Origin: Phycisphaeraceae bacterium
GTDB taxonomy: Bacteria; Planctomycetota; Phycisphaerae; Phycisphaerales; UBA1924
NCBI GenBank assembly: GCA_019636515.1
Contig: JAHBXI010000001.1
Coordinates: 558,001 to 622,000 of the forward strand
Length of the DNA: 64,000 bases
Direction of reading: 5' to 3'
Part shown: piece by piece, positions 5,019 through 13,257 of the stretch
Position numbering within the stretch: position 1 is the first letter of the stretch
Layout: each line of letters opens with the position of its first letter
Translations under genes and position numbers: made by a program
The notes under the pieces: model-generated
Told to the model about the DNA's origin: nothing
Databases searched by the model: none
The model's input: only the letters and a program-made list of their open reading frames with translations

Positions 5019-7340
5019 TCACCAGCGGTCGAGCGCGTCGATGCCGTATCGGCGGATGGCCACGGCCCTGGCCATTGGCGAATGCCGCAGGGCACGGACG
5101 ACCCTGAACGTGCGCGAGCGTGTGAGCGCGGCGAGCCGCGCGGGAGCGTCGGCATCGGAAGGGGCATCGAACCCGTGCCCGAACCGAAGCCGGTTCATGA
5201 CGCGGACGGGCCACAGGTTCTTGATCGAGCGTATGACGTGGTAGGATCGCGAGCCTTCGATCTCTCGCAGCGACGCGAGGGCATGCCCGGGATCGACCGT
5301 GGCGAAATCGACGGGCGGCACGTATCCGTATCGAGCCCTGGCGATCCAGAGTCGCTCACGCTCAAGACCGTGCAGCCGGAGGAAGGCGCACGGCCAGCGG
5401 CTTGACCCCGCCAGGCTCCACAACTCCTGGTAGGCGGCCGGATCGTGCGCCACCCTGCGGAGGATCGACCGTGGAGACGGGGTCTCCATGTCGACAAAGC
5501 CGCCCAGGCCGAAGGTTTCGTTGTGGCTGAGATTGAAAAACGCCCTGGCCAGCGACCGCGGGGGCGCGGCGATGATGCCCCGGACGGCGTTGGTGGCCAT
5601 CGGGCGCAGGTCCTCGGACGAACAGGCATAGTCGCGTATCCACCGGACCATCGCGGGCACGGCCGCGATCACGCCGTTCTGGAAGAAGCGGGTGGCTTCG
5701 TGCCAGACCGCCGACTCGCCTTCGTCCTCCGCCCGCCGAGGCTCGACGCGTCCATCCACGAATTCGTATCCGGTCACGCTGCCATCGGGGCTGTTGGCCA
5801 GGAATTCAAGCGGCTGGACATGCTCAAGAAGCGGGCCGTGCCCTGCCTCGTCGGCGGCCACATCGCACGCGTAGGCGATCTTGGTGGCGTTGCCCGGCTG
5901 CTCGTTGAGCGTCCGGTGCATCCCGAGGTACACGCCGACGATCTCGCACGAGGGAAAGACGTGCGCGAGATTGTCCTGGATCGTCCCGCGCCATCCTATG
6001 TCGACGACGACCTTGATGGACCGGTCGTCGCGGAAGTTCCGGGATTCAAGGTACCGGCACAGCCGTTCGCGTCGCCGGCGACGCGCTCGATCGATCGTCC
6101 CCGAGAATCGCCGGTCCTCCAGCAGCGAAACGACCCGCGGGTCGGTCCAGGGGTATCGAATCACCTCACCAGGATCCAGTCCGTGAAGGCGAAGCACGGG
6201 ACGAACGGAGATCTGGGGGATATCGAGCGTGGCGAGCAGGCCCCCGATGGACTGCGAGGAGTACAGATTCCACACCCGCATGAACTCGGCGGTCGAAACA
6301 TCACGGATGGACGGGCCGAAGGTGGAAAGGCGGCTGACCTCGAGGAGTTCGGCGGCGGGAAGTGGGACACCCAGCAGGGCATCGCCCGGGGCCGCGGCCT
6401 GCATGGCCTCGTGTACGCGCCGGAAGAAGACGCCCTCTCTGGTGAAATAGTGGACCGCCGGGACTCCGCGCCGGACGGCCTCCTCCATGGCCCGAAGGAC
6501 CAGCCCGACGTAGAGCGGGGCGCACCGTGCGCCGAACAGGAACGCCTCTCGCTGGTCGGTTGAGCCGTGGCCCGGAGGGACAACCTCGGCGGCGATTGAC
6601 CGTCGCAGCAGGGGAGCCAGCGCGGCGGGATCATGGCGACGCGACCAGCGGTCGGCGTGGTCCGCCCGGGCGGACTCGGCCCGGGCGGGCGCGTAGCGTA
6701 TCGAGTGAATCCCAAGCGCGGCCGGCGTGGCGGCATCCGTGATCGGGTGGTCGCCGACGTGTACGTGCTGGCCAGGGGTGACCCGCGAGCGACTGTGGAC
6801 ATGCCTGAACAACCGTCCCGACCGCTTGTTGAGACCGACATCGCACGATACGACCACCTCGTCGAGGCGCAGCCAGGGGGCCTTTGCCGAGATCAGTTTG
6901 CCCAGGGCATCGCCGGACCAATAGAAATCGGACAGGGCGACGCGGCGGGCGCCGTTGCCCGGCGACAGGATCGGAGCGATCCCGTCGTCCGCGAAGGTCA
7001 CCCGGTGCTCCTGCGACACCTCGACGGACCGCGCCCAGTTCGCGACGCAGCGGGCTTCGTCCGGGCGCGGTGAATCGAATACCGAGCCGATCCATCGCTC
7101 CAGCACGTCGTCGAGGCGGTATTCATCATCCATTCCCAGGGCCAGGGCGCGAAGCCCGATGTCGTGCTCGGCCCTCTGGCGGGCGTGCAGCAGCCCGATG
7201 GGTCCACGCATGCCCGGTTTCAGCCGCCCCGGGAACGCGAGCCACAGCGCCCTGGCGGTGAAGAGTTTGACTTCATCGGGGTGACACCGCCTGCGGAGGA
7301 TCGTGTCCCAGACATCGATGGTGTACAGGGTGTGTGCCAT
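5019..7340 (-). CDS. HAD-superfamily protein of polysaccharide loci (COG5610-like)
   Basis: A 773-residue protein with an N-terminal HAD-like domain (about residues 1-230) that keeps all four motifs: the nucleophile region IDVWDTILRR, motif II VALSDFYWSG, a motif III Lys in LNKRSGRL, and motif IV VGDHPITD. The following 400 residues form an uncharacterised domain with HYFTREGVFFRRV and VVDIGWRGTIQDNLAH. This arrangement matches predicted HAD hydrolases found among rhamnan and O-antigen genes; the reaction is not known. The C-terminus has two copies of a short SR-aromatic motif (see findings). ATG 7340 is used because it begins the HAD domain 11 bases after the upstream gene's stop; the longer frame to 7649 would overlap that gene. 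It is the last gene of the minus-strand polysaccharide operon. Confidence 0.82.
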   Translation of the reverse strand: MAHTLYTIDVWDTILRRRCHPDEVKLFTARALWLAFPGRLKPGMRGPIGLLHARQRAEHDIGLRALALGMDDEYRLDDVLERWIGSVFDSPRPDEARCVANWARSVEVSQEHRVTFADDGIAPILSPGNGARRVALSDFYWSGDALGKLISAKAPWLRLDEVVVSCDVGLNKRSGRLFRHVHSRSRVTPGQHVHVGDHPITDAATPAALGIHSIRYAPARAESARADHADRWSRRHDPAALAPLLRRSIAAEVVPPGHGSTDQREAFLFGARCAPLYVGLVLRAMEEAVRRGVPAVHYFTREGVFFRRVHEAMQAAAPGDALLGVPLPAAELLEVSRLSTFGPSIRDVSTAEFMRVWNLYSSQSIGGLLATLDIPQISVRPVLRLHGLDPGEVIRYPWTDPRVVSLLEDRRFSGTIDRARRRRRERLCRYLESRNFRDDRSIKVVVDIGWRGTIQDNLAHVFPSCEIVGVYLGMHRTLNEQPGNATKIAYACDVAADEAGHGPLLEHVQPLEFLANSPDGSVTGYEFVDGRVEPRRAEDEGESAVWHEATRFFQNGVIAAVPAMVRWIRDYACSSEDLRPMATNAVRGIIAAPPRSLARAFFNLSHNETFGLGGFVDMETPSPRSILRRVAHDPAAYQELWSLAGSSRWPCAFLRLHGLERERLWIARARYGYVPPVDFATVDPGHALASLREIEGSRSYHVIRSIKNLWPVRVMNRLRFGHGFDAPSDADAPARLAALTRSRTFRVVRALRHSPMARAVAIRRYGIDALDRW

Positions 7341-7351
7341 CGTCGGAGCGG

Positions 7352-8878
7352 TCAGGGCGAGGTTCGATCGGCGTGCCTGCGGGCGGAGTACCAGCGGTAA
7401 AGAGGGGTGGCCTTTGAGGCGGCGATGAAGCGGTAGGTCCGGCTCGTGCGAACGCGGTGCAGGCGTGACCGCGGATCCTCGTGCGGGTCGGCGCGTTGCC
7501 AGTCCGGGCCCCATCGCATCCTTGCCAGGATCGAGAACGGCGGCATTCGCTTGAGTCCATCGAACAGCCGCCAGGTGCGTGAGTTCAGGATGGAATCGAG
7601 TTCGATGGAGGCGGCAAGTACCTGGCGGGCCTCCAGGGCGGCCAGCCACGCGGCCCGGGCGCCATCTTCCACGATCGAGCGGGGCTGAGCCGGGCCCGGC
7701 CCACCGATGATCGCGGCGCGGTGGTACGAGGGTCGCAGGCCGCGCGAAACGGCGACAAACTCCGATTCCCGGCCTTCCAGGAGCGTCTCGACCGCCTCGA
7801 TGAACTGCGTGTACCCGTATTCCAGGGATCGCCGCGCCATGAACGACAAGCCGTTCGCCGACATCGCCCCGCGGCGAGGCTCGTCATCGAGCAGTTCAAT
7901 GATCGCCGCGGCGATATCCTCCGGCCTCGGGCCCGCGAGCAGGACCGCCGCGTCCGGCTGGTCGTAGAGGTTGTTCTCGCGGTGGATGTCCACCACCGGG
8001 AGTCCCGACGACATCATCTCGAACGGGATCCGGGAGGGGTTCGAGGAACTGATGCACAGGCCGACGCTCGATCGGTTGTAGACCTCGTTGCACCCACGGA
8101 CGTCGAGCAGGCCGTGCCATTCGTGGTCGTACCAGACGTCGGGACGCTCCTTCGATCCGTACAGCAGGATCTTCACGTCCGGCCGGTGGTGCTTGACGAT
8201 TCCCAGCGCCTCGATGCCGATCCGGGAGCAGCGGCGCGGCTTTTCCGGCTGACAGATCATGCAGACCGCTCGCTCACGCGGGATCGACCCGAGCGGCCGG
8301 TACACGTCATGGTCGGCGCAAAAATCGAAGTACGAGCCAAACGCCGAGAACTCGGCCGAGAGTTTGTGCGTGAGCCATCGACCGATGGTGATGGGCGTGA
8401 GCCCCAGCCGGTAGGAGTTCTCGGCCATGAGATACCCGTCACCCATGGGCATGAACATCGCCTCGAAGTCCTGCACGAAATACGCCTTGCACGCGACGGG
8501 AGACCAGGCCGCGTACGGGGCGGTGTACCACGCCGTGGCGAACACCAGGTTGAACGTGCCGGGAACCTCGAACCCCAGGTGGATGTTCGGATCGTCGTAC
8601 CCGAAATACATCAGCAGTTGCTCGCGAGCGCGGGCGAGTTCCTCCTGGGTCGTCGCGTGATCCGGCGCGGACGCCTGCTCAATGAACAGGTGGCACTCGT
8701 GGCCCCGGTCGATCAGCGCCCGGGCGTTCTGCAGGATCGTCCGATGACCCCCGGATCCCTCGATCAGGGAAGGCATGAGCCACGCGATCTTCGCGGGGCG
8801 ATTCGTCGGCGCGGGGGGCCATGGGACGTCATGGTCGTGCGATGGCAGGAGTGACTCGGGCATCGTCGGATCATTCAC
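7352..8878 (-). CDS. WsaF-like (rhamnosyl)transferase
   Basis: A 508-residue GT-B type glycosyltransferase resembling WsaF, an L-rhamnosyltransferase of S-layer glycan assembly. Recognisable stretches are LMPSLIEGSGGHRTI at the N-terminus, YFVQDFEAMFMPMG in the middle, and the donor-site region NPSRIPFEMMSSGLPVVDI, which corresponds to the E-x7-E region of GT4-like enzymes. About 150 C-terminal residues lie beyond the catalytic fold and carry two SR-aromatic repeats like those of the downstream protein. The start is a GTG at 8878; an ATG five codons later (8863) is an alternative. It sits in the minus-strand operon between the methyltransferase/coiled-coil gene and the HAD gene. Rhamnose as donor is inferred from the family and is not shown by the sequence. 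Confidence 0.8.
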   Translation of the reverse strand: MNDPTMPESLLPSHDHDVPWPPAPTNRPAKIAWLMPSLIEGSGGHRTILQNARALIDRGHECHLFIEQASAPDHATTQEELARAREQLLMYFGYDDPNIHLGFEVPGTFNLVFATAWYTAPYAAWSPVACKAYFVQDFEAMFMPMGDGYLMAENSYRLGLTPITIGRWLTHKLSAEFSAFGSYFDFCADHDVYRPLGSIPRERAVCMICQPEKPRRCSRIGIEALGIVKHHRPDVKILLYGSKERPDVWYDHEWHGLLDVRGCNEVYNRSSVGLCISSSNPSRIPFEMMSSGLPVVDIHRENNLYDQPDAAVLLAGPRPEDIAAAIIELLDDEPRRGAMSANGLSFMARRSLEYGYTQFIEAVETLLEGRESEFVAVSRGLRPSYHRAAIIGGPGPAQPRSIVEDGARAAWLAALEARQVLAASIELDSILNSRTWRLFDGLKRMPPFSILARMRWGPDWQRADPHEDPRSRLHRVRTSRTYRFIAASKATPLYRWYSARRHADRTSP

Positions 8879-8985
8879 TCGCGTCGGTTCGCGTCCAGGG
8901 GATTACGATCATACGCCCTTCGTCCGGCACGATCGTCGGAAACGGGCATGTCGGCGGGCCGTCCGTGGGCCGCGGGTTGGTCGGA

Positions 8986-10638
8986 TCACGACCGAGTCGC
9001 CCGGGGGCGTTGTTCTCGCTCCGGACGGGCGACCCGTGCGGCCGATCCCCGCGGGTTTGCGAGAGACTCCCGCTCGATCTCGATTCTCTCGAGTTGCTCG
9101 ACACGCAGGGCGATCATTTCCACGTCCGCGGCAAGCCGGCTCACGTCACCTTGAAGTTGGCTATTCATACGTTCGTACTCCCCGAGGCGCCGTCGGAGAT
9201 CCCGGGTCTCCTGGCGCTGGCCTTCGATGTAGACGGTCATCGCGTTCAGATCAGCCGAAAGAACATCGCCCCGTCGTTCGAGTCCGGCGACGCGGGCAAG
9301 CGCGTTGGCATGCTCGGCCGAAAGGACTGCCAGGTCCTGTTGCAGGCGGCCGACCTGCGAGTCCAGTTGGCCGAGGCGATCCTGTGCCTGGGCGAGGGCC
9401 TGCGCCGCGTCGCGTCGAGATGCCTCCGAACTGGAGAGTTCCTCAGTCAGCGTCTGGGCACGCCGGCGAAGGCCGGCGACCTGGGCGTCGGACTCGTCGG
9501 CTCGCCTCGCGGCACGATCAAGCAGGTCCATGACCTCCGGCAGCCGGCGGGCGGTCTCGCGGGCCGATCGGATGCAGTCGATCGCCCGCGCCGCGATCTC
9601 CGCGATCGCGGGGGCATCGGGCGAGCCATCCGACCTCGGGACCTGGTCCGATCCGATGGCGTCGAGGCAGATGGCCTCGACCAGGCGTGCCCGCTCGGCG
9701 ACGGCCTGCTTGAGGAACACGATCTCGTTGTCGCGATCCCTGATCATTTCATCCATGGACCGGATGGCGGCGAGGCGCTCCACCGCCATCAGGCCGGTGT
9801 CTCGCAGTTCGGTCGCCGCGCGTTCGTGCATGGCGCGGTGCGTGTAAATCTGGATCTTGTCCGACAGGTTCCGCCGCCGCATCGCCCTGAGCCATCGATC
9901 CCCCTTGGGGAACACGACGCCAAGCCCCCACGAGTGCTCGAACGAGAACGAGGGATACCTCGCCGAGAGTTCTCGCCAGTACCGTGCCGACCCGTACCCG
10001 GTATTCTCGGCGACATCGTGCAGGAGCACCACGCCGTCGGGGGCGAGTTTCGCAAGCCACGATTCAAAGTCGTGATTCACCGCGTCGTACTCGTGGAATC
10101 CATCGATGTGCAGGAGGTCGATCGATGCATCCTCGACAAGGCATAATGCCTCGTCGAACGTCGTGGGATGAAGATCGATCCTCAGGCCCGAGAACCGCTC
10201 GGCGATGATCCGGCGAACCATCGCCAGCACCTCCGATCCGTACGGCCCCGTGTGGTCATCCCCCCGCCACGTATCCACGCCGATGAGCCGCGACGGGATC
10301 CCCGCATCCTTGACCGCCTGCGCGAACGCGAACAGCGACGTCCCCCAGTGTACGCCGATCTCCGCGATCACCCTCGGCCGCATGAATCGGACCAGGTCGT
10401 ACGCCCAGTGGCGATGCCCCCCCCAGGGCCAGACGGGCATGAGAGGGCAGAACTCATCGGCCTCGAACACGTGCTGGCTGATGACCCACGTGGGGGTGCT
10501 TGTGGACACCTGGGCGCGAGGGGCTCGCCCGCTCCGGGGCTTGGGAACGACCTTGCCCGGTCTCGACACTTCGGGCGTCGGAACAGGCTCTTTGCCCGGC
10601 GGCTTCGAACGCCCACGCCTGGGCCGCGGTGTCGTCAC
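8986..10638 (-). CDS. SAM-dependent methyltransferase fused to a long coiled coil
   Basis: A 550-residue protein in two parts. Residues about 75-270 are a class I SAM methyltransferase of the Methyltransf_24 type: RVIAEIGVHWGTSLFAFAQA is the SAM-binding loop, IGVDTWRGD carries the acidic residue at the end of strand 2, and LLHIDGFHEYDAVNHDFE with VVLLHDV completes the fold. From about residue 300 onward the chain is Ala/Arg/Glu/Gln/Leu rich with long heptad-like stretches (LRRRAQTLTEELSSSEASRR and similar), a predicted coiled coil of roughly 200 residues. The GTG start overlaps the stop of the Wzt-like gene as GTGA, so the two are translationally coupled. The architecture resembles WbdD, which caps O-antigen chains by methylation and measures length with a coiled coil, but no kinase domain is seen. 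Probable role: chain capping and length control (inference). Confidence 0.82.
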   Translation of the reverse strand: MTTPRPRRGRSKPPGKEPVPTPEVSRPGKVVPKPRSGRAPRAQVSTSTPTWVISQHVFEADEFCPLMPVWPWGGHRHWAYDLVRFMRPRVIAEIGVHWGTSLFAFAQAVKDAGIPSRLIGVDTWRGDDHTGPYGSEVLAMVRRIIAERFSGLRIDLHPTTFDEALCLVEDASIDLLHIDGFHEYDAVNHDFESWLAKLAPDGVVLLHDVAENTGYGSARYWRELSARYPSFSFEHSWGLGVVFPKGDRWLRAMRRRNLSDKIQIYTHRAMHERAATELRDTGLMAVERLAAIRSMDEMIRDRDNEIVFLKQAVAERARLVEAICLDAIGSDQVPRSDGSPDAPAIAEIAARAIDCIRSARETARRLPEVMDLLDRAARRADESDAQVAGLRRRAQTLTEELSSSEASRRDAAQALAQAQDRLGQLDSQVGRLQQDLAVLSAEHANALARVAGLERRGDVLSADLNAMTVYIEGQRQETRDLRRRLGEYERMNSQLQGDVSRLAADVEMIALRVEQLERIEIERESLANPRGSAARVARPEREQRPRATRS

Positions 10639-12095
10639 GGCTCACCTCCCACGCCACCCTTGATCGGGGCAAAGTCGAACGCCCGCAGCGGATTGGTGAA
10701 CAGCCCATGGATCGGGAGGTCCGGGCTGATGCCCGCCACCGCCACCACGCTGTGCGCCCAGCACTGGATCACGTGGCTCAGGGCATCGTCTCCCTCGCCG
10801 CATCCGAACGTCACGGTGTACGTCGCGGGCTGCAACCGCGGCCACTCGTACTCCATGCGAACCACGTACTCGCCCGGTCCGGGCAGGTCGACCAGCCGCC
10901 CCGGGGGGCTGAGTGAATTATCGCCGCACACATGCGTCCCCGTCCGATCCACCAGCGCGGTCCCGAAGATGAGATGTCGCTTGGCGGCCGCCGAACGGAC
11001 CATCATCCACGCGACGCATCGGTCGCCGGGACGGGCGGTTGCAAGCCGCTCCCCGCGAGCGTTGGTCAGCGCCACCCGGGTGATCACGACCTCGCCCGCC
11101 CCTCCGATCGACTCGCCATCAACCACAACCCACGCCCCCGGCTCGACCGACGCGGCCAGTCTTGCTCCCTCCGACTCGACGGGCGCCGGCGCGGACGCCT
11201 CCGAGAGAACCGGCGGGACGACGCCCCCGGCGAGGCGGCCCCGGTCACGGCGGAACTCCTCCGAGTGGACGGTCCTGGTGTAGTACTCGATCGCCTCGGC
11301 GGGAGAGCCATCAAAGACCAGTGCTCCCTCGTGCATCACCAGGCAACGCTCGCAGAGCGAGGCGATCGACGCCATGTCGTGCGTCACCAGGATCTTGGTC
11401 ACCCCCGCCAGTTCCTCGCGCATGTGCCGCATGCATCGTTGCTGGAAGAATATATCCCCGACGGACAACGCCTCGTCCACGACCAGCACGTCGGGCGTCA
11501 TCATCACCGCCGCCGCGAACGCGACCCGGACGTACATCCCGCTGGAATACGTCTTCATCGGCTGGTCGAAGAAATCGCCCACTTCGGCGAACGCCGCGAC
11601 TCGCTGGGTGATGGACTCCATCGCGGCGGGCGAGAACCCCTGCACCGCTCCCGACATCATGACGTTCTCTCGTCCCGTGAACTCCGGATTGAACCCGGCC
11701 CCCAGTTCGAGCAGCGCGTTGACCTTCCCCAGGATCGTGACCGACCCGGTCGTGGGCGCAAGGACCCCCGCCAGGACCCGCAGGATCGTGCTTTTTCCCG
11801 AGCCGTTGCGGCCGATGATCCCCACCGCCTGCCCGGCCGGAATCGTGAAGTTCACACCGCGGATCGCCCAGAAGTCCTTGAAATACTGCCGGTGCCACCG
11901 CAGCAGCGCCTGCTTGAGGCGGTCCGCCGGTTTCTCGTACACGTGGTAGCACTTGCCCAGGTCCACCGCGCGAACCACGGTCTTTGCGACACCGGCCAGG
12001 CGGGCGTTATCAACCGGCAGGGGAGCGCTCCTGGTTGGTGCGGAGAGCGTCGTCATCTCGTCGGGGAAGTGTACGCGTGCGGCGACACGGTTCAC
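10635..12095 (-). CDS. wzt: Wzt-type polysaccharide ABC transporter ATPase with C-terminal sugar-binding domain
   Basis: A 486-residue nucleotide-binding subunit for export of a lipid-linked polysaccharide across the inner membrane. The ABC domain has Walker A GRNGSGKST, signature YSSGMYVRVA, Walker B VLVVDEAL and the switch His in VTHD. ALLELGAGFNPEFTGREN is characteristic of the polysaccharide-export subfamily. Residues about 320-486 form a beta-rich C-terminal region as in Wzt proteins that recognise the modified end of an O-antigen chain. The GTG at 12095 is preferred over ATG 12056 because GGAGGAGG lies a few bases upstream; the stop of a possible 63-codon ORF overlaps it as GTGA. The permease gene is divergent 300 bases away, and the methyltransferase gene follows with a 4-base overlap. 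Confidence 0.92.
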   Translation of the reverse strand: MNRVAARVHFPDEMTTLSAPTRSAPLPVDNARLAGVAKTVVRAVDLGKCYHVYEKPADRLKQALLRWHRQYFKDFWAIRGVNFTIPAGQAVGIIGRNGSGKSTILRVLAGVLAPTTGSVTILGKVNALLELGAGFNPEFTGRENVMMSGAVQGFSPAAMESITQRVAAFAEVGDFFDQPMKTYSSGMYVRVAFAAAVMMTPDVLVVDEALSVGDIFFQQRCMRHMREELAGVTKILVTHDMASIASLCERCLVMHEGALVFDGSPAEAIEYYTRTVHSEEFRRDRGRLAGGVVPPVLSEASAPAPVESEGARLAASVEPGAWVVVDGESIGGAGEVVITRVALTNARGERLATARPGDRCVAWMMVRSAAAKRHLIFGTALVDRTGTHVCGDNSLSPPGRLVDLPGPGEYVVRMEYEWPRLQPATYTVTFGCGEGDDALSHVIQCWAHSVVAVAGISPDLPIHGLFTNPLRAFDFAPIKGGVGGEP

Positions 12096-12396: not shown

Positions 12397-13257
12397 ATGC
12401 ACGACGCCGTCACGTACAGCGCCAGCCCACCCGGCCTCCGGGAGTATCTGAGCCCATCGAGCATGCTCGCCTCGATATGGACGCACCGGCGGGTTTCGTC
12501 GGCGATCGCCCGCCGAGAGGTCGAAGGGCGATACCGCACCCACCGCCTGGGCCTGTTCTGGGTTCTCATGCACCCGCTGGTCATGCTGGGGGTCTACACC
12601 TTTGTCTTCGGGATCGTCTTCAAGACCAAACTGACACTCCGCGACGATGAGCCGCTGGGTGTCTACGCCCTGGCGATCTTCACCGGCCTGCTGACCTTCG
12701 GGATCTTCCGGGAGATGGCGACGCGGGCTCCGACGCTCATCGTGGCCCACCGCCACTTTGTCACCAAGATGATCTTCCCGCTTGAGTCGCTCGCGCTGAG
12801 CGAACTGCTCGCCGCGCTCTTCAATTTCGCGGTCGGGATGATCGTCTGGGTCGTCGGCTACGTGGCCTTCATCGGGGAGATGCCGACCTGGCACGCCCTG
12901 CTCACTCCCCTGCTGCTGGTCCCCATCTGCCTGGCGGGATTGGGCATGTCGTGGCTCCTGTCCGCCCTGGGAACGTTCCTGCGTGACCTGGCGAGCGTGG
13001 TGGAACTCGCGGTCATCGTCCTGTTCCACATGACCCCCATTTTCTACAGCATCGACCGCATCCCCGAGCCGTGGAAGTCCATCCTCATGTGGAACCCGCT
13101 GGCCCACGTGGTCCAGTCCGTCCGGGCCGTGCTGCTTGAGCACCGGCAGCCCGACTGGCCCTGGTTCCTCGGCTCGCTTGCGACCTCGTTCCTGTTCGCC
13201 GTCGTCGGGTACGCCGTGTTCATGAAAAGCCGCCGAGCCTTCGCGGACGTTCTGTAA
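12397..13257 (+). CDS. wzm: polysaccharide ABC transporter permease (Wzm-type)
   Basis: A 286-residue ABC-2 family inner-membrane permease, the expected partner of the divergent Wzt ATPase. The cytoplasmic N-terminus reads AIARREVEGRYRTHRLG and leads into the first membrane helix at FWVLMHPLVMLGVYTFVFG; this is the normal start of O-antigen and teichoic-acid exporters. About six hydrophobic segments follow, with the conserved LRDLASVVELAVIVLFHMTPIFY stretch (read in two halves) and WNPLAHVVQSVRAVLL near the end. Length is normal. ATG 12397 is used. It is transcribed alone, away from the rest of the locus, and converges on the M14 peptidase gene. Together with Wzt it should form the channel for the finished, capped polysaccharide. 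Confidence 0.92.
   Translation: MHDAVTYSASPPGLREYLSPSSMLASIWTHRRVSSAIARREVEGRYRTHRLGLFWVLMHPLVMLGVYTFVFGIVFKTKLTLRDDEPLGVYALAIFTGLLTFGIFREMATRAPTLIVAHRHFVTKMIFPLESLALSELLAALFNFAVGMIVWVVGYVAFIGEMPTWHALLTPLLLVPICLAGLGMSWLLSALGTFLRDLASVVELAVIVLFHMTPIFYSIDRIPEPWKSILMWNPLAHVVQSVRAVLLEHRQPDWPWFLGSLATSFLFAVVGYAVFMKSRRAFADVL

Follow-up and report, generated by a model that had tools for sequence, protein, structure and literature searches.

The gene at 8986..10638 on the minus strand of the window, by which we mean the whole 64,000-nucleotide stretch analysed here from a 3.39 Mb Phycisphaeraceae genome, probably encodes a chain-terminating methyltransferase that carries its own coiled-coil ruler and serves an ABC-transporter-dependent system for a capped polysaccharide. 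The open reading frame, called mt-coil below, is intact (550 codons), and its assignment as a candidate terminator draws on a Methyltransf_24 domain, an AlphaFold2 (AF2) model, a COILS prediction and hydrophobic periodicity. It stands second in a head-to-tail series on the minus strand, which runs from wzt (10635..12095), the ATP-binding subunit of a polysaccharide ABC exporter, through mt-coil to the gene of a WsaF-like GT4 glycosyltransferase (7352..8878, WsaF_C E 7.8e-16) and a ribofuranosyltransferase gene (5019..7340, with the start corrected to 7340). The exporter permease gene wzm (12397..13257, plus strand, ABC2_membrane 1.4e-20) is divergent. As the original prediction had it, wzt and mt-coil overlap by four bases, GTGA being common to the Wzt stop and the methyltransferase start. 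The two downstream genes belong to the same module and were absent from that reading.

When 84,980 species genomes were scanned, eleven named relatives were found, all of them in metagenome-assembled genomes (MAGs) of Planctomycetota and mostly in Phycisphaerales, and the order divergent Wzm, Wzt with a cap-binding domain, MT-coil, WsaF-like glycosyltransferase and HAD-like gene was kept in 11 of 11. No Pfam family was assigned to the HAD-like gene of the window (5019-7340); its profile matched 7shg, the ribofuranosyltransferase of Thermobacillus composti, over positions 7-624 (E 8e-55), and the model of its product matched the same structure in Foldseek (5.4e-21). Judged from profile and model, the product is a PRPP-dependent ribofuranosyltransferase, predicted to combine a HAD phosphatase with a phosphoribosyl-transfer domain as 7shg does, and a candidate second polymerase module beside the WsaF-like GT4. 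Given this identity and the conserved gene order, the operon is therefore read from its sequence as encoding two putative polymerase components, an exporter whose Wzt would read the cap, and a candidate terminator, as in Klebsiella O4 and O7, where two-domain ribofuranosyltransferases form a separate polymerase module (PMC11231755). An L-rhamnan glycan, considered by analogy to WsaF, is unsupported because RmlC of the dTDP-L-rhamnose pathway was not found in the genome (94.6% complete). The genome has LpxC and two Wzy_C-type proteins, and an LPS-type outer membrane is therefore plausible in the host. The C-termini of both the glycosyltransferase and the ribofuranosyltransferase form helical tails with repeated SR(S/T)(Y/F/W)-type motifs, and a similar segment, SSSWRITAPLR or SRSWRITRPMR, joins coil and glycosyltransferase in two other loci (L049 and L070); the tails may be a common helix for docking or membrane contact.

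In the AF2 model the MT-coil protein consists of a methyltransferase domain (about residues 51-246), a helix (258-328), a break (329-342), a long helix (343-527) and a basic disordered tail (528-550). The catalytic core, placed by alignment and by the nearest PDB structure, covers residues 51-208 (10015..10488, minus strand), and the Pfam-type match to Methyltransf_24 (PF13578) covers residues 93-209 (E 3.2e-23). The SAM loop ELGVHWGTS and the HIDGxH/HD motifs are kept across ten aligned family members, as in Methyltransf_24/COMT-like enzymes. Both by Foldseek fold and by profile, the best PDB match to the domain is MeT1 of Mycobacterium hassiacum. WbdD, the terminator of E. coli O9a with which the protein had been compared, did not appear in PDB sequence searches at E<=1, whether a single sequence or the methyltransferase profile was used, or among the best 50 Foldseek matches to the methyltransferase model. 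The claim that this methyltransferase differs from that of WbdD thus holds, and without detectable homology the MT-coil protein is not a WbdD. Domain searches detected no kinase domain in the protein, and the AF2 model has a single globular domain.

Three lines of evidence agree that the helical tail is a coiled coil. COILS (window length 28, run with our own implementation and hand-entered weights) placed coil at residues 368-456 and 471-508, with 127 residues at P>0.5, while shuffles of the tail composition gave a mean of 9 coil residues and 0 of 100 reached 127. The hydrophobic periodicity of residues 343-527 (9058..9612, minus strand) peaks at 3.49 residues, and none of 500 shuffles was as strong; the earlier helix, 258-328, showed no heptad periodicity. 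With ten family members as input, AF2 predicted both helices in a monomer model, the second of them mostly at pLDDT 80-92 and unbroken over 185 residues, the first being 71 residues long. The coil comes to about 150-185 residues in total, close to the 200 or so of the original prediction. With a rise of 0.1485 nm for each residue, the long helix would measure about 27 nm and the whole spacer about 33 nm. No clear amphipathic membrane-binding helix was seen at the C-terminus, where the tail after residue 527 is predicted by AF2 to be disordered and basic.

Conservation is distributed unevenly along the protein. Pairwise identity in the family is 65% in the methyltransferase domain, 22% in the coil (306-500) and 52% in the distal tip (501-521; 9076..9138, minus strand), where the consensus is DxE(L/M)xx(L/M/I)RxExxE and D505, E507, R512, E514 and E517 are invariant in all ten sequences. 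Spacer length, measured from A285 to D505, both of them conserved, ranges from 220 to 268 residues. Members of the window subgroup have one copy of an (L/M)AxxR...I..Q motif and most others two copies, spaced 35-67 residues apart, and coil length may therefore have changed partly through internal duplication. Two conserved ends with a divergent, length-variable middle would be the pattern expected of a spacer, and the polymerase may dock at the tip.

In the mechanism that we propose, the WsaF-like GT4 and the ribofuranosyltransferase would, going by their homologies, extend a lipid-linked, ribofuranose-containing polymer, and the MT-coil protein would dock near this polymerase by its conserved tip and hold the methyltransferase about 27 nm to 33 nm off. 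A chain would have to grow until it reached the methyltransferase before its non-reducing end received an O-methyl group, which would stop its growth. By analogy with the Aquifex, E. coli and Klebsiella systems, Wzt would recognise the methylated end with its C-terminal domain, and Wzm/Wzt would export capped chains only. It is also conceivable, if rather unlikely, that the methyltransferase does cap the chain end while the coil serves only to hold the glycosyltransferase, the ribofuranosyltransferase and Wzt together as a scaffold; chain length would then follow from the relative rates of the enzymes or from export. A conserved tip suits docking as well as a ruler, and the 220-268 residues of the relatives are a modest difference in coil length; against this, an unbroken heptad helix of 185 residues exceeds what docking needs, and in the characterised O9a and O12 systems chain length is set by coil length (PMC11231755).

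The Wzt partner bears on the reading of a coiled-coil ruler with a methyl cap. The original prediction had noted an additional beta-rich domain, and this is borne out: besides ABC_tran (E 1.1e-21), Wzt has a Wzt_C match at residues 332-454 (E 1.5e-16). Its start may be a downstream ATG at position 12056. The closest solved Wzt is that of Aquifex aeolicus (8dku), matched over the full length, and the C-terminal domain (10635..11120, minus strand) matches by profile the isolated A. aeolicus carbohydrate-binding domain 6o14 (E 1.6e-16) and 5hno (E 5e-7). The Aquifex domain binds a 3-O-methyl cap (PMC9445017), but its cap-contact residues H350 and W362 align ambiguously with the window Wzt around the trap loop and show no clear conservation; the cap may therefore differ from that of Aquifex in its methyl position or its sugar. 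Clusters of the cap-binding domain agreed with clusters of the terminator at an adjusted Rand index of 0.69, against 0.24 for clusters of the nucleotide-binding domain (NBD). A partial Mantel comparison of cap-binding domain and terminator with NBD similarity controlled gave a weak correlation of about 0.12 (95 of 2000 permutations), and co-variation of the two is only suggestive.

Whether the methyl group goes to the polymer end or to a precursor depends on what the methyltransferase accepts. Methylation of a nucleotide-sugar or lipid-linked precursor, with the methyl groups as internal decorations and a coil of unrelated function, seems to us distinctly improbable. Methyltransf_24 and related families do include small-molecule and sugar-pathway enzymes. 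On the other side, the position of MT-coil is fixed after a cap-reading Wzt, and in L049, a more distant locus from the same order as the window organism, a related Methyltransf_24 methyltransferase is joined to two GT2 domains via a coil in one protein adjoining Wzt, here a Wzt without the cap-binding domain. Among the methyltransferase homologues examined away from Wzt, the coil was absent in L047, L048, L119 and L120 and short in L117, where the homologue is a 1327-aa multidomain protein. The nearest structure, MeT1, acts on oligosaccharides (PMC9883506) and not on nucleotide sugars. Taken together, the MeT1 match, the L049 fusion and the missing or short coil away from Wzt favour action on the polymer end, as far as sequence and analogy allow, over action on a nucleotide sugar. 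An apparent natural fusion of MT-coil and glycosyltransferase (L111, 1033 aa) was set aside as a likely frameshift artefact, since its linker and C-terminus seem to be read in the wrong frame and the following gene has a disturbed start.

The association of coil and Wzt extends beyond this methyltransferase family. Wzt_C is carried by 76 of 150 related genomes, and the census counted the 44 loci that have a same-strand gene immediately downstream of Wzt. In 20 of the 44 loci the gene directly after Wzt_C reaches 50 or more coil residues, against 10 of 702 other genes at the same loci (Fisher 4e-20), and without the window methyltransferase family the figures are 15 of 39 against 10 of 702 (8e-15); these P values overstate the enrichment because the loci are related and not independent samples. 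The enrichment outside the family, with different catalytic domains, makes it very improbable that these are merely co-transcribed envelope genes in a lineage-specific association, with a structural or cytoskeletal coil and no role in capping, even though the scan found the closest family in Planctomycetota MAGs only.

Of the coil-bearing proteins after Wzt that were scanned, most were methyltransferases of other Pfam families, and one was weakly pyruvyl-transferase-like. In L099 (7233-9608, after Wzt_C) a Methyltransf_11 protein has a 370-residue coil in which a unit of about 22 residues, of the LQNAxxELxxLRERVExGExAxV type, recurs many times almost unchanged. The order is reversed in L054 (1401-3023, after Wzt_C), where the coil (37-300) comes first and the methyltransferase (347-440) last. 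Directly after a Wzt with Wzt_C, a single protein of L070 (4549-8019) combines Sulfotransfer_2, more than 250 coil residues and a GT4, and from this make-up it is a candidate sulfate-capping ruler. Proteins of 653 aa without predicted coil overlap the Wzt_C gene by four bases in L076 (7581-9542) and L079 (10478-12439); the former has Sulfotransfer_3 and a methyltransferase, and the latter clusters with it. The gene after Wzt_C encodes the NADH dehydrogenase subunit NADHdh in L050 (10471-11811) and L055 (8369-9829), so that adjacency to wzt alone is insufficient to define a terminator. In L101 a Methyltransf_11 protein (7801-9552) for which little coil is predicted lies beside the same pair of WsaF-like glycosyltransferase and ribofuranosyltransferase, and this pair with a different terminator suggests that the terminator module can be exchanged.

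The WbdD-like logic of the original prediction, that is, terminal methylation, spacing by a coil and reading of the cap, agrees with the operon structure, the relatives, the conservation and the predicted structure, and by analogy the MT-coil protein most likely works like WbdD; the arguments for novelty fared less well. Like the WbdD/Wzt pairs of E. coli O9a and O8 (Klebsiella O3 and O5), it has an N-terminal methyltransferase, a C-terminal coil and a Wzt partner with a cap-reading domain. Unlike WbdD, it has a methyltransferase of another family and no evident C-terminal amphipathic membrane helix, and the polymerase of the WbdD systems is the mannosyltransferase WbdA instead of a GT4 with a ribofuranosyltransferase. 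Coiled-coil terminators and cap-reading Wzt proteins are reportedly treated as hallmarks in the 2019 census of Mann, Kimber and Whitfield in Glycobiology, which is said to predict further chemistries. The missing kinase, found in the O9a type, is not new, because E. coli O8 WbdD is also methyltransferase-only (PMC3482155). As for an independent solution to the same problem, the methyltransferase does come from another family than that of WbdD, but non-homologous terminators on coiled coils are already established in Klebsiella O12, O4 and O7; in published work the coil is regarded as a characteristic marker of terminators and the strategy as widespread (PMC11231755).

In overall module make-up the best match to the window is Klebsiella pneumoniae O7 (ORF6/ORF7) and O4 (ORF5/ORF6/ORF7), in which an ABC exporter, a coil terminator and a separate two-domain ribofuranosyltransferase are clustered (PMC11231755). 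In O7 the cap is methyl phosphate and its terminator is joined to GT2 modules, whereas the window methyltransferase is kinase-less and stands alone; the O4 cap is Kdo (GT137), and the window partner glycosyltransferase is WsaF-like. The Geobacillus WsaE/WsaF system for an S-layer glycan shares an N-terminal methyltransferase for a terminal O-methyl cap, a WsaF-type glycosyltransferase and a wzt that overlaps the terminator gene (PMC2943079); it differs in that the window methyltransferase is not fused to GT2, a ribofuranosyltransferase is present and RmlC was not found. WsaE and ORF6 of Klebsiella O7 resemble L049 in the MT-coil-GT2-GT2 layout of a single protein. MeT1, the mycobacterial methylmannose polysaccharide 1-O-methyltransferase, has the closest solved structure and an oligosaccharide acceptor but methylates the 1-OH, at the reducing end, of oligomannosides, has no coil and lies in a four-gene cluster without an ABC exporter.

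The finding would add Planctomycetota to the bacteria that terminate glycan chains with a coiled-coil ruler, and its methyltransferase family is not one used in the characterised systems considered, those of Klebsiella O3, O4, O5, O7 and O12 and E. coli O8 and O9a. Since the family is a natural series with the same methyltransferase, exporter and polymerase and differing coil lengths, a comparison of glycan lengths can test the ruler hypothesis. Also in the wider set is the candidate sulfate-capping ruler of L070. It is possible, though we hold this only tentatively, that in this planctomycete class a common chassis of coil ruler and cap-reading Wzt has been combined with several unrelated capping enzymes (the COMT/MeT1-type methyltransferase, several Methyltransf_11/25 enzymes and the sulfotransferase of L070), and that chain length would evolve by change of the coil while the cap enzyme and the docking tip stay fixed.
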